Assembly (NCBI RefSeq): GCF_900105925.1
Contig: NZ_LT629791.1
Location: 4,434,001 to 4,498,000 of the forward strand
Source: Jiangella alkaliphila
GTDB taxonomy: Bacteria; Actinomycetota; Actinomycetes; Jiangellales; Jiangellaceae
Length of the DNA stretch: 64,000 nucleotides
Direction of reading: 5' to 3'
Shown here: positions 60,405 through 63,870 of the stretch, one piece after another
Numbering within the stretch: the first letter of the stretch is position 1
Layout: the number at the start of each line of letters is the position of its first letter
Made by a program: the position numbers and the translations under genes
Notes under the pieces: generated by a model
The model's input: only the letters and a program-made list of their open reading frames with translations
What the model was told of the DNA's origin: nothing
Databases searched by the model: none

Positions 60405-61886
60405 TCAGCCGGTGCGCGACCGGCCGAGCGGCTCGCGCACCAGGATCTCGTCGACGTAGCAGTACTGCCAGTCCGCGCCCGGCTGCAGCGACTGGATGAT
60501 CGGGTGGTGCTCGTCCTCGTAGTGCGCCCGCGAGTGCCGGGCGGGGGAGTCGTCGCAGCAGGCCACCAGCCCGCACTTCATGCACAGCCGCAGCTGCACC
60601 CAGGTGCCGCCGTCGTCGATGCACTGCTGGCACACGGTGATGTCGGTCTCGGTGACCTCCATCTGGTCCTGGTGCATGCAGGCTGTGCTCATGGTCTCGG
60701 ACTGGACGAACCGCCAGCGCGACCGCAGCAGCCGGTCGGACACGAACCGGGCGAAGTGCTTGGACTGCGACGCCAGCAGCGGCGCCGCGATGGCCAGCAC
60801 CAGCACGTACAGCGCGACGAACGGCCCGATGCGCTCGTCCAGGCCGGCCGCGATGGCCAGCGTCGCCAGGATCAGCGAGAACTCGCCGCGGCCCAGCACC
60901 GTCAGCCCGATGTTCGTGGCCGCCCGCTGGTTGAACCCGAACAGGCGGGCGGTGACGATGCCGGCGGTCATGTTCGTGACCAGCGTGACGCAGACGGCGA
61001 TGACGACCGGTACCGCGACGCCGCCGAGGTCGCCGATGTCGATGGTCAGGCCGAACGAGATGAAGAAGACCGCCGCGAACACGTCGCGCAGCGGCAGCAC
61101 CAGCTGCTCGACCCGTTCCTTCAGCGTCGTCCGCGACACCACCAGGCCGATCATCAGCGCGCCGATCGCCTCGGACACACCGACCTCGAGCGCGACGCCG
61201 GCCACCAGCACGACCAGCCCGACCATGAGGATGGCCAGCAGCTCGTCCTCGCGGGTGTCCAGGAGCAGCGCGATGGCCCGCGCGCCCCACCGGGCCAGCG
61301 CGAACAGCGCGACCAGGAAGCCGAAACTGACCAGCAGGTCGACGATGAAGTCGGCGGTCGAGCCTGAGTCGTTGAGCACCGGCGCCAGCAGCGCCAGGTA
61401 GAACGCGAGGAACATGTCCTCGATGACGATGATGCCGAGGATGATCGGGGTCTCGGCGTTCGTCAGCCGGCGCAGCTCGATCAGCAGCTTCGTCGCGATG
61501 GCCGACGACGAGATGCCCAGCGCACCGGCGATGACCAGCGCCTCCGACGTCCCCCAGCCCAGCGCGAAACCGAGCGCCAGGCCGGCGCTGACGTTCAGCC
61601 CGATGTAGACGCCGGCCGCGATGAACAGCCGCTTCCCGCTGCCCAGCACCTGCTCGGCGGGGAACTCCACGCCCAGGTGGAACAGCAGCAGCACCAGGCC
61701 CAGCGACGCCAGCAGCGCGAGGTCCTCGGGGTGCTCGACGAACACCGGGCCGGGCGTGCCCGGGCCGAACACGATGCCGATGAGCATGTAGCAGGGCACG
61801 GTCGGGAAGCCGTACCGGCGGCCGAGCCGGGCCGCCAGCCCGGCGAGCAGGACGATCGCGCCCAGGCCGATGAGGTCTGCGTGCAC
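60405..61886 (-). CDS. CPA2-type cation:proton antiporter with C-terminal UBP-type zinc finger
   Basis: This 493-residue protein has about 12 helices of the KefB/CPA2 antiporter fold in residues 1-385 (GLVLLLFHLGVEFPAEQVLGS, GALGISSSAIATKLLIEL, VLGRGEFSLILATLAIAAGL). A cytoplasmic UBP-type zinc finger occupies about residues 405-480 (CMHQDQ, VCQQCIDDGG, RLCMKCGLVACCDDS, RHSRAHYEDEHHPI, WQYCYVDE). It should exchange K+ or Na+ for H+. The usual regulatory partners are TrkA-N/C domains; here a zinc finger takes that place. A 75-residue KhtT-like gene lies just upstream in the same direction. Confidence 0.88.
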   Translation of the reverse strand: MHADLIGLGAIVLLAGLAARLGRRYGFPTVPCYMLIGIVFGPGTPGPVFVEHPEDLALLASLGLVLLLFHLGVEFPAEQVLGSGKRLFIAAGVYIGLNVSAGLALGFALGWGTSEALVIAGALGISSSAIATKLLIELRRLTNAETPIILGIIVIEDMFLAFYLALLAPVLNDSGSTADFIVDLLVSFGFLVALFALARWGARAIALLLDTREDELLAILMVGLVVLVAGVALEVGVSEAIGALMIGLVVSRTTLKERVEQLVLPLRDVFAAVFFISFGLTIDIGDLGGVAVPVVIAVCVTLVTNMTAGIVTARLFGFNQRAATNIGLTVLGRGEFSLILATLAIAAGLDERIGPFVALYVLVLAIAAPLLASQSKHFARFVSDRLLRSRWRFVQSETMSTACMHQDQMEVTETDITVCQQCIDDGGTWVQLRLCMKCGLVACCDDSPARHSRAHYEDEHHPIIQSLQPGADWQYCYVDEILVREPLGRSRTG

Positions 61887-61951
61887 TGATTCCCCTTACG
61901 TCGCGGATCGCACTGCCGCCCGGACCTTCGCGGTCGGCGACCGGCGGAGGC

Positions 61952-62179
61952 CTAGCCCTCGAAGAACGTTCCGGTCAGCACGGCGCCGAGTTTCAGCGCC
62001 TGCTCGCGGGTCAGCTCGAGGACGGCGGTCGGCTCGTCGCCCTTGGTGGTGAAGACGTAGAGGTCGCGGATGTCGCCGTGCCGCACGACGACGGAGATCC
62101 GCTGCGTCGGGCTGCCCAGGTCGATGTCGTACCGCTTCCCGATGCCCGGCAGCTCCTGCATGTGCACGCCCTGGCCCAT
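61952..62179 (-). CDS. Small KhtT-like antiporter regulatory protein (N-domain only)
   Basis: This 75-residue protein (VHMQELPGIGKRYDIDLGS, RISVVVRHGDIRDLYVFTTKG, AVLELTREQALKLGAVLTGTFF) matches the N-terminal domain of KhtT, the regulator of KhtU-type K+/H+ antiporters. It lacks the C-terminal TrkA_C ligand-binding half (usually ~160 residues in total). It precedes the antiporter gene by 65 bases, so they form a likely operon. The domain probably contacts the antiporter. Confidence 0.8.
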   Translation of the reverse strand: MGQGVHMQELPGIGKRYDIDLGSPTQRISVVVRHGDIRDLYVFTTKGDEPTAVLELTREQALKLGAVLTGTFFEG

Positions 62180-62218: not shown

Positions 62219-63703
62219 CTAGGGTCGAGCGAGGCGCAGGAACGAGGGCTCGGGGCGCTCGACCCGTTCACCCTCAGCGAGTTGGGCTCGCAGCCGGGCC
62301 GCGCCGCCGGGCACGAACGGTGCCAGCTCGGCGGCCACCACCCGGCACGCGTACACCAACGCGCCGATGACGGCGCCGGCGTCGGCGCGCCCGCGGCGGT
62401 CGCGTTCCCAGGGCCGCTCCGCCTCGACGGTGCGGTTCCCGAGGTCGGCGACGGCGATAAGCGCGGCCGTCGCGGCCCGCAGGTCGAACCCGTCCAGCGC
62501 CCGGTCGACGGCGGCCGGCAGAGCGTCGGCGGCAGTGACCAGCTCGCCGCCCGGGTCCGGCGCGGCGACGGCGCCGCCGTGCAGCCGGTGCGCCAGCGTG
62601 AGCGTCCGCTGCACGAGGTTGCCCAGCCCGTTGGCCAGCTCGAGGTCGTGCCGGGCGACCAGCCGCTGTTCGGTGAAGTCGGTGTCGCCGGTGCGTGGCA
62701 CCTCGCGGACGAACCACCAGCGCAGCGCGTCGGTGCCGTACCGGTGGGCGATGGCGGCCGGATCGGCGGTGCCGCCGCGGCTCTTGGAGATCTTGGCGCC
62801 GTCGACGGTGAGGTAGTCGTGCACGAGGATCGCCGTCGGCAGCGGCAGCCCGGCCGCGAGCAGCTGGGCCAGCCAGTACACGGCGTGGAACCGCACGATC
62901 CCCTTGCCGATGACGTGCACGCGGTCGGCCGACCCCGCCCACCAGTCGCGCAGCGCCGCGTCGTCGTCGCCGCCGTAGCCGAGCGACGTCACGTAGTTCG
63001 CCACCGCGTCCCACCACACGTAGACGACCTGGGACGGATCGCCGGGCACCGGGATGCCCCAGCCGCCGGCCCGCTCGGCCGGACGGGACACGCTGATGTC
63101 GCGCAGGCCGGCGCGGACGAACGCGAGCACTTCGGCGCGCTTGGCGGCCGGCTCGATGCGCACGGCGCCGGACTCGAGGACGCGCAGCAACTCGTCCTGG
63201 TACCGGGACAGCCGGAAGAACCAGTTCTCCTCGCTGACCTTCTCAGGCGCGACGCCGTGCTCCGGGCAGACGCCGCCGGTCAGCTCGGCGTCGGTGTAGA
63301 ACTGCTCGCAGCCGGCGCAGTACAGCCCGGTGTAGCGGCGCCGGTAGAAGTCGCCGTTCGCGGCACAGCGCTCCCAGAGCTGGCTGACGCCCGGCAGGTG
63401 CCGCGGGTCGGCACTGGTCCGGATGACGTCGTCCACCGACAGCGCCAGGGACTGGCCTAGCGCGACGAACCTGGCGGCGTTGGCGTCGACGAACTCCCTG
63501 GTGGGCACGCCCGCGGCGCGAGCGGCGACGACGTTCTTCAGCGCGTTGTCGTCGGTGCCGGTGAGGAACCGGACCGGACATCCGCGCAGCCGCCGGTGCC
63601 GAGCCAGGACGTCGGCCTGGACCAGCTCGAGCGCGTGCCCGAGGTGCAGCGCGCCGTTGACGTACGGAATGGACGTGGTGACGTAGTAGCGGCCGGTGGT
63701 CAT
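62219..63703 (-). CDS. metG: Methionyl-tRNA synthetase
   Basis: This 494-residue class I synthetase has HLGH at residues 20-23 and KISKS (GAKISKSRGG) near residue 300. The knuckle region has two CxxC/CxxH-like pairs (YCAGCEQFYTD, VCPEHG), and WDAVANYVTSLGYGGDD and the anticodon-binding helices are present. It joins methionine to tRNA-Met. It lacks a C-terminal tRNA-binding extension. It may be the only copy or a second, drug-tolerant paralog; the window cannot show this. The ATG at 63703 has AAGGGAG. An attenuator-like leader lies upstream. Confidence 0.92.
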   Translation of the reverse strand: MTTGRYYVTTSIPYVNGALHLGHALELVQADVLARHRRLRGCPVRFLTGTDDNALKNVVAARAAGVPTREFVDANAARFVALGQSLALSVDDVIRTSADPRHLPGVSQLWERCAANGDFYRRRYTGLYCAGCEQFYTDAELTGGVCPEHGVAPEKVSEENWFFRLSRYQDELLRVLESGAVRIEPAAKRAEVLAFVRAGLRDISVSRPAERAGGWGIPVPGDPSQVVYVWWDAVANYVTSLGYGGDDDAALRDWWAGSADRVHVIGKGIVRFHAVYWLAQLLAAGLPLPTAILVHDYLTVDGAKISKSRGGTADPAAIAHRYGTDALRWWFVREVPRTGDTDFTEQRLVARHDLELANGLGNLVQRTLTLAHRLHGGAVAAPDPGGELVTAADALPAAVDRALDGFDLRAATAALIAVADLGNRTVEAERPWERDRRGRADAGAVIGALVYACRVVAAELAPFVPGGAARLRAQLAEGERVERPEPSFLRLARP

Positions 63704-63750
63704 GATGAGCTCCCTTCGCCCTTGCGTCGGCGGGGGAGTGCACACACCGA

Positions 63751-63775
63751 GAAGCCCCCGCTGAGCAGGGGCTTC
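63751..63775 (-). terminator. Attenuator terminator hairpin upstream of metG
   Basis: On the minus strand GAAGCCCC (63775-63768), a 9-base loop and GGGGCTTC (63758-63751) form a perfect 8-bp stem between the leader peptide stop and the metG start. There is no T run after it, as usual in actinomycetes. CCCCTG in its left arm can instead pair with CAGGGG (63821-63816) in the leader coding region, which would disrupt this hairpin. Confidence 0.7.
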
Positions 63776-63797
63776 GCTGGTCGGGTGGTGACTTGTG

Positions 63798-63857
63798 TCA
63801 GCGCACGCCGAGAGACCCCTGGACGGGGCGCATCATCGGCTGGGTGCACTGGGTCAT
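63798..63857 (-). CDS. 19-residue leader peptide with tandem methionines
   Basis: The ORF MTQCTQPMMRPVQGSLGVR ends at TGA 63800-63798. Two adjacent internal ATG codons (63836-63831) lie immediately before a CCCC/GGGG hairpin. A ribosome stalled there for lack of Met-tRNA would mask CCCC (63828-63825). This frees CAGGGG (63821-63816) to pair with the terminator's left arm and prevents termination. This is the classic logic of amino acid biosynthesis attenuators, here applied to metG. The ATG appears leaderless. The pairings were worked out by hand. Confidence 0.7.
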   Translation of the reverse strand: MTQCTQPMMRPVQGSLGVR

Positions 63858-63864
63858 GCCGTCG

Positions 63865-63870
63865 AGCATA
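63865..63870 (-). promoter_or_regulatory. -10 box of the metG leader transcript
   Basis: TATGCT (minus strand, 63870-63865) lies seven bases before the leader ATG, so transcription would start at or near that ATG. No good -35 is found 16-18 bases upstream. A TTGACA at 63931-63926 is too far to pair with it. Confidence 0.4.

Follow-up and report, generated by a model that had tools for sequence, protein, structure and literature searches.

The trp and his attenuators of Escherichia coli follow a 1:2/2:3/3:4 pairing logic, with a leader peptide led by a Shine-Dalgarno (SD) sequence and a terminator that ends in a U run. Vecchione and Sello are said to have described, in 2010, ribosome-mediated transcriptional attenuation of an auxiliary, antibiotic-resistant tryptophanyl-tRNA synthetase (TrpRS) gene in Streptomyces coelicolor, and Canestrari reportedly described, in 2020, leaderless polycysteine open reading frames (ORFs) of mycobacteria. 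According to the available sections of PMC8079986, Streptomyces leaders precede leuS, trpS, thrS and alaS, and a Met leader precedes metNIQ; in those of PMC1262725, attenuator candidates precede leuS and trpS2, and methionine operons have no conserved RNA structure upstream. Here we analyse a leader with two adjacent Met codons on the reverse strand of a stretch of 64,000 nucleotides (nt) of Jiangella alkaliphila DNA (contig NZ_LT629791.1, positions 4,434,001 to 4,498,000; hereafter the window), located upstream of an auxiliary methionyl-tRNA synthetase (MetRS) gene. Judging from its sequence, we consider it highly probable that this leader is a ribosome-mediated transcription attenuator that senses charged tRNA-Met. 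In sequence comparisons, the leader, its Met codons, their spacing, the predicted terminator and the promoter spacing recur in many actinomycete genera.

The pairing logic of the window leader is the same as that of the E. coli attenuators, which differ in being led by an SD sequence, in possessing a U run and in being free of an initiator-tRNA complication. Closest in logic is the auxiliary TrpRS attenuator, which also serves a spare synthetase, with Trp rather than Met as the amino acid. The mycobacterial polycysteine ORFs are alike in that a leaderless ORF senses its amino acid, which there is cysteine. Their mode of control is called translation attenuation in the available sections of PMC13236596. 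The Streptomyces synthetase leaders share a short ORF, whose codons match the downstream synthetase, followed by hairpins; those of leuS, trpS and thrS are leaderless, and those of trpS and thrS are without a U-rich stretch (PMC8079986). They differ in that the codon here is Met and the target an auxiliary MetRS, and no MetRS leader is among those listed in the sections available. Similarly, metL of Streptomyces lividans, before metNIQ, is a leaderless Met-containing leader peptide and a proposed attenuator, whereas it precedes a methionine importer, has 29 codons with scattered Met and is without a typical Rho-independent terminator (PMC8079986). The earlier note on this DNA, made from the sequence alone, knew of no well-described metG example with such a layout in actinomycetes; we found no leader-peptide attenuator of a MetRS gene in searches of the open-licence literature, including the available sections of PMC8079986, PMC1262725, PMC4833913, PMC8165550, PMC13236596 and PMC4787780, a scope outside which most subscription papers lie. 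Within a known kind of attenuator, the unusual features are the Met codon, the spare-enzyme target, the spread and the possible second control level.

The features of the window leader are collected in Table 1. As the earlier note had claimed, a 19-codon ORF with two adjacent Met codons is present, and CAGGGG (63821-63816) is complementary to CCCCTG (63771-63766). The terminator, to which the note gave 8 base pairs (bp), is in fact GAAGCCCCTGC-TCA-GCGGGGGCTTC at 63775-63751, a stem of 11 bp with a 3-nt loop (UCA in the RNA). Additionally, CCCCCGC overlapping arm 5 is complementary to GCGGGGG of arm 4. The whole leader (157 nt) folds at -76.9 kcal/mol with a z score of -3.75, and none of 200 shuffles folds as well.

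Table 1. Features of the Met-codon leader and the MetRS gene, in window coordinates.
Feature	Position	Strand	Remarks
-10-like TATGCT	63865..63870	-	7 nt before the leader start codon
Leader ORF, 19 codons plus stop, MTQCTQPMMRPVQGSLGVR	63798..63857	-	ATG at 63857, TGA ends at 63798; read as leaderless
Tandem Met codons, proposed stall site	63831..63836	-	
Arm 1 core CGCCCC	63825..63830	-	Contains CCCC 63828-63825
Arm 2 core CAGGGG	63816..63821	-	Pairs with arm 1 or arm 3; contains GGGG 63819-63816
GUGCGCUG	63799..63806	-	Predicted partner CAGUGCAC at 63851-63844; outer stem of the 1:2 hairpin
Arm 3	63765..63775	-	5' half of the terminator; partner of arm 2
Arm 4	63751..63761	-	3' half of the terminator; compensatory changes in relatives
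Arm 5 CTCCC	63734..63738	-	5' arm of the SD-covering hairpin
Arm 6 GGGAG	63710..63714	-	SD of the MetRS gene; predicted pairing with arm 5
Auxiliary MetRS gene (metG-like), 494 amino acids	62219..63703	-	TIGR00398, PF09334

In the proposed mechanism, a leaderless transcript would begin at or beside the leader AUG. When Met-tRNA is ample, the ribosome would reach the stop codon, arm 2 being either covered by it or paired with arm 1; the terminator would then form from arms 3 and 4, and the MetRS gene would stay off. When elongator Met-tRNA is short, the ribosome would stall with a Met codon in its A site and cover arm 1; the free arm 2 would pair with arm 3, no terminator would form, and the auxiliary MetRS would be made. 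Less firmly, the SD hairpin probably holds MetRS translation down and may open upon read-through. We infer the transcription start, termination, stalling and the response to Met-tRNA; layout, conservation, spacing, terminator covariation and the two MetRS genes are read directly from the DNA. Conservation, spacing and geometry support the earlier note's attenuator reading of the layout, with corrections.

To compare the leader among relatives, we picked orthologous upstreams by protein similarity and not by the leader. The scan of named genomes used 13 aligned proteins and took the best 80 loci among at least 594 pattern matches (at least 564 relatives). Pooling gave 102 upstreams, and 100 after L015 and L037, species repeats of L065 and L135, were dropped. 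An internal Met-Met tandem in a short leader ORF occurs in 86 of the 102 and at least one internal Met in all 102, compared with 0-1 and 15-24 in 20 dinucleotide shuffles, 1 and 34 on the opposite strand, and 0 of 11 and 3 of 11 for housekeeping MetRS upstreams. With species repeats removed, 85 of 100 leaders have the tandem, 12 a single internal Met and 3 several but non-adjacent ones, and all 100 have at least one. Conservation of the leader ORF and stems in relatives, the lack of which had been set beforehand as counting decisively against the reading, is thus what was found. Specifically, the leader is present in 15 of 15 Jiangellaceae orthologs, four of which (L011-L014) have one Met instead of two; outside the family, 16 orthologs have a Met-rich leader, 13 of them of one other kind (GTG start, for example ending in RRMMLMPMPSGLLRAS before the stop). 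Among the best 80 named loci, a strict scan found the leader in 64 and inspection found it in the remaining 16, the genera being Jiangella, Actinoplanes, Micromonospora, Dactylosporangium, Streptomyces, Actinomadura, Saccharothrix, Kribbella, Oerskovia and others. Eight further regions gave a leader (9-10 codons) in 5 of 5 auxiliary orthologs, a leader also in L059, and none in two loci nearer the housekeeping type. The leader peptide varies widely in sequence and in length (9 to 28 codons), unlike the Met codons and RNA arms, which are kept.

By layout, the 100 loci fall into group J (31 loci, window included; Jiangella, Actinoplanes and similar genera), whose leaders mostly end in GVR and a stop, group S (54 loci of Streptomyces/Actinomadura type) and group B (15 loci of many-Met type). 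The many-Met leaders seemingly represent an independent or much-altered layout. Most of those with a GTG start (L038-L044, L046-L051) carry CCGGATG/CATCCGG around the Met codons, and GGCCT(C/T) faces GAGGCC.

The start of the leader shows an equally regular arrangement. In 80 of 100 loci, a TAnnnT motif precedes the leader start codon by 6 or 7 nt; it occurs at none of the other offsets between 0 and 27. An SD-like GGAG or GAGG precedes the leader start in 0 of 100; an SD-like motif is found at the MetRS start in 77 of 100. Reading frames had been assigned with a score that uses the -10, and start codons re-chosen without it were unchanged in 94 of 100. In S. lividans, TAnnnT is the -10 of mapped transcription starts, on average 6.3 nt upstream (PMC8079986, available sections). 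Because of the TAnnnT spacing, the lack of an SD and the match to the S. lividans -10 distance, a leaderless start of the leader transcript is very likely from the sequence.

To place the Met codons relative to the arms, the best hairpin lying +3 to +40 from the first regulatory Met codon was measured in each of the 85 loci of groups J and S. The geometry relies on the size of a ribosome footprint. In the available sections of PMC13236596, it is 26 nt centred on the codon. In all 85 loci, the start of arm 1 falls between +3 and +14 and that of arm 2 between +14 and +29 (+14 to +17 in 82), and a ribosome stalled at the Met codon would mask arm 1 but keep arm 2 accessible. The leader stop lies 3 nt past arm 2 in 37 loci and 14 nt past it in 23, and a ribosome at the stop codon would cover arm 2. 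Five of the 85 leaders (L093, L100, L124, L132 and L036) stop before the end of arm 2 yet retain the Met codons and arms, so it is the codons and the RNA that are kept, not the peptide end.

A stem of at least 6 bp between leader and gene is found in 97 of 100 loci, with a mean z score of -2.60; the core hairpin was not found in L077, L081 and L124, and elsewhere the script at times picked a different hairpin. For covariation, alignment A2 holds 28 of 31 group-J loci (L079, L082 and L094 dropped) and alignment A3 51 of 54 group-S loci (L117, L124 and L127 dropped), those left out being unalignable downstream. In A2, 85.4% of cells pair in helix 3:4 compared with 78.8% in shuffles, and a one-column slide lowers this to 50-58%. 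Doubly changed cells number 28 against 15.0 in shuffles, a count that none of 500 shuffles reached; 6 pairs contain a double change compared with 4.4, a value reached by 39 of 500 shuffles. In A3, 91.3% of cells pair and 8 are doubly changed, compared with 2.8 in shuffles, of which 2 in 500 reached that count; 3 pairs contain a double change compared with 2.2, reached by 180 of 500 shuffles. Helix 3:4 thus covaries and is the most stable and best-supported helix of the leader, termination itself being predicted. The covariation that the earlier note looked for in both alternative stems is hence present in the terminator; in the 2:3 stem it is no better than in shuffles in J or S. The putative antiterminator that the note read from CAGGGG/CCCCTG keeps its complementarity, which exceeds that of shuffles (mean z -1.57 over 97 loci) and reaches 97.2% of cells for the 5-pair core in A3. 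Since this core hardly varies, it shows no covariation, and the antiterminator rests on complementarity and geometry.

The CCCC/GGGG hairpin directly after the Met codons is likewise present, and its C4/G4 core is nearly invariant, with 97.1% of cells paired in alignment A6 (which leaves out L020, L079 and L084). Rather than as the pause hairpin of the earlier note, it is better read as a protector (1:2). Outer stems probably lengthen it, as with CAGUGCAC/GUGCGCUG in the window and CUCAGCA/UGCUGAG in several Streptomyces. These outer stems could explain the conserved GVR tail of many J leaders. For the fold of the whole leader ORF, the mean z is -2.10 in J, -0.89 in S and -0.93 in B, with values below -1 in 23 of 31, 27 of 54 and 6 of 15 loci, respectively. 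Support from the short 1:2 segment alone was dropped, as its mean z against shuffles is -0.06 and the whole-ORF fold does better.

Next to these pairings, a hairpin over the SD of the MetRS gene is predicted. Over the 50 nt that end at the MetRS start codon, the mean fold z is -1.69 in J (31 loci), -0.63 in S and +0.50 in B, compared with -0.26 for 105 control starts, taken mechanically from the named loci as ATG starts of long ORFs with an SD-like motif; the difference from controls gives Mann-Whitney p values of 7e-8 for J and 0.006 for S. The mean pairing probability of the SD is 0.76 in J (27 measured), 0.71 in S and 0.18 in B, compared with 0.53 in controls. The 5:6 helix in A3 has 24 doubly changed cells compared with 11.9 in shuffles (0 of 500 as high), and a 14-row Jiangellaceae alignment shows a doubly changed row for 3 of 7 predicted pairs, with a weak consensus energy of -3.59 kcal/mol. 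In single-sequence folds, the 5:6 arms vary but stay complementary (CTCCC/GGGAG in the window, GTGTCC/GGACAC in L068). The fold scores, the SD pairing, the covariation and the retained complementarity of the arms make the predicted hairpin over the SD likely in J and in some of the S loci; in many Streptomyces loci its score is near zero. It suggests an added level of translational control. We hypothesize that arm 4 opens the hairpin by pairing with arm 5, a pairing with a mean z of -0.21 in J (29 loci) and -1.38 in S (53 loci). The leader would then be a six-arm, two-level switch, in which 2:3 leads to 4:5 and the SD (arm 6) opens, so that a single stall would govern transcription as well as translation. 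The spare MetRS under this control would be one that many actinomycetes retain for situations where the resident enzyme fails, for instance when natural MetRS inhibitors or methionine analogues are present; we offer this extended scheme as speculative and rather unlikely.

Several points weigh against attenuation by charged tRNA-Met. MetRS charges initiator and elongator tRNA alike. The chief doubt is that a Met shortage would also cut fMet-tRNA, lower leader initiation and thereby favour termination; since severe shortage would stop leader initiation, the switch should work at partial shortage, with elongator tRNA-Met limiting first. The second doubt is the missing U run: the terminator stem is followed by none, TCGGTGTGTGCA coming next, and the hairpin is not classed here as an intrinsic terminator of E. 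coli type, in which a U run follows the stem. Actinomycete attenuators without one are described in the available sections of PMC8079986. The missing 2:3 covariation is expected if arms 1 and 3, and arms 2 and 4, must stay alike; chance gives the same result, and it is no proof. The outer 1:2 stem does not covary in the window's register in A6, and the 1:2 segment alone is no better than shuffles. In the 15 loci of group B, the z scores of 2:3 are mixed (-1.9 to +2.4), and other hairpins were often picked by the script. Finally, 15 of 100 leaders are without a tandem, 12 of them with one internal Met, and the counts are not independent because the loci are related.

The same observations bear on other explanations. 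Control could be mainly translational, with the stalling or passage of the leader ribosome opening the SD hairpin and 3:4 acting only as a switching arm. The strong fold and SD pairing at the J MetRS starts, the 5:6 covariation in A3 and the missing U run after 3:4 would fit, but 3:4 is the most stable and best-supported helix, and the Met codons and the 3:4 arms remain in group B, which lacks the SD hairpin, and in the many Streptomyces loci where that hairpin scores close to zero; we give this explanation very little credit. Many hosts of such leaders are antibiotic producers. This would agree with an arrest peptide or a general upstream ORF (uORF) that senses a translation-blocking antibiotic rather than Met-tRNA, as would the uORF control of whiB7/wblC cited in the available sections of PMC13236596. 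Since, however, the peptide varies in sequence and length while the Met codons and RNA arms persist, and the downstream gene is a MetRS, which fits the Met codon, it deserves even less credit.

A structured 5' region before an amino-acid gene may also point to a ligand- or tRNA-binding RNA, such as an S-adenosylmethionine (SAM) riboswitch or a T-box, with an incidental ORF, and both are named as regulators of such genes elsewhere (PMC1262725, available sections). The ORF with its Met codons is nevertheless the most constant feature, and no Rfam family matched the window leader (expectation value, E, up to 5) or, at gathering score, any of 20 loci, which makes this explanation very improbable. 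A T-box or SAM riboswitch identity was rejected on this negative search; weak mir-598 and snoZ206 matches lie inside the MetRS coding region. It remains that high G+C content makes runs of C or G and hairpins common, that the 2:3 core is without covariation and that the 1:2 region alone does not exceed shuffles, as a chance ORF with a meaningless GC-rich hairpin would predict; the shuffle, opposite-strand and housekeeping controls, the fixed promoter spacing and the fixed geometry speak against it, the counts refute chance, and we give it practically no credit. A ribosome-mediated attenuator is therefore the reading we retain.

The downstream gene, called metG in the earlier note, does encode a MetRS, as the 494-amino-acid protein matches the metG family TIGR00398 with 379 bits (cut-off 336) as well as PF09334 and PF19303. 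It is not the sole metG of this Jiangella genome (about 7.7 Mb), in which a second MetRS, 41% identical to the leader-bearing one and without a leader of this kind, lies at 2211676-2213109; from sequence similarity, the leader-bearing gene is classed as an auxiliary MetRS. The nearest model of the leader-bearing protein is PRK12267, which we take to be the type-1 MetRS group; it scores 441.8, under the cut-off of 598, and the second MetRS 664.8, above it. Drug resistance of the leader-bearing MetRS was considered, and its nearness to PRK12267 says nothing for resistance.

The family search and the order search returned an identical set of 22 genomes. Of these, 15 hold the auxiliary gene, each together with the other, housekeeping type. 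Four (G015, G017, G018 and G019) hold the other type only, and three (G003, G004 and G021) gave neither type at the search similarity. Of 393 class genomes sampled, 39 match the auxiliary protein (E 1e-100), two of which (G041 and G151) are nearer the housekeeping protein. Two MetRS matches above the cut-off are present in 7 of 7 named genomes tested, with a third, below the cut-off, in two; the partner MetRS is nearest PRK00133 (below its cut-off) in Dactylosporangium fulvum, Streptomyces canus and G282, and of PRK12267 type in a Kribbella genome. Six genomes, five of family f18 (G058, G136, G212, G267 and G291) and G188, have a single MetRS at E 1e-40, of the leader-bearing type, so that in all six the switch would act on the sole MetRS detected; two of the six are only 85-88% complete. 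G105, a sixth genome of family f18, shows a second MetRS match, under the cut-off, inside a frame of 1167 amino acids.

Some MetRS loci are irregular. In G011, the auxiliary MetRS is in two overlapping pieces (L021, 1501-2256; L029, 1501-2229), as if the frame were broken, and the leader is intact. In L059 (G065), the MetRS match starts at residue 119 with an in-frame TGA, and the leader MRRDDRMMRPSPGPFGVR and the hairpin arms are kept. Streptomyces sp. Act143 (G395, the genome of L114) has three MetRS-like matches, one of them under the family cut-off and about 9 kilobases from another.

Since Met is the only amino acid whose lack should also block initiation on the leader, a Met-codon attenuator offers a sharp test of how the elongator and initiator Met-tRNA pools diverge under stress. 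If the two-level switch were true, a codon shared with translation initiation could still serve as a starvation sensor. By analogy with the Streptomyces auxiliary TrpRS, a spare MetRS with a leader in a minority of actinomycetes may point to a hidden stress- or inhibitor-response gene, and reporters for compounds that target MetRS could readily be built from the leader.

A covariance model of the Streptomyces-type leader (R1) matched in 8 of 296 genomes. Four matches (G028, G074, G007 and G010) lie directly upstream of auxiliary MetRS genes, and in the other four (G055, G070, G175 and G252; E 0.0017-0.0088) no MetRS N-terminus was seen by eye in the 600 nt after the match. The model says little on leaders at other genes, because it missed most Jiangella leaders, including the window's own. 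The neighbouring ORFs of a few loci showed no shared pattern or common partner: cytidine deaminase, BTAD regulator and glycosyltransferase domains occur at one locus each, with no match in 5 of 8.

The housekeeping MetRS gene itself looks leaderless, with TACCAT or TACGAT 7 nt before the ATG (11 loci, by eye; for example L003, upstream of 1492). Directly downstream of the auxiliary MetRS gene, at 60405-62179 on the reverse strand, lie an ORF of 75 amino acids (no NCBIfam match) and a CPA2-type cation:proton antiporter (TIGR00932, below cut-off), which together presumably resemble a KhtT/KhtU pair.

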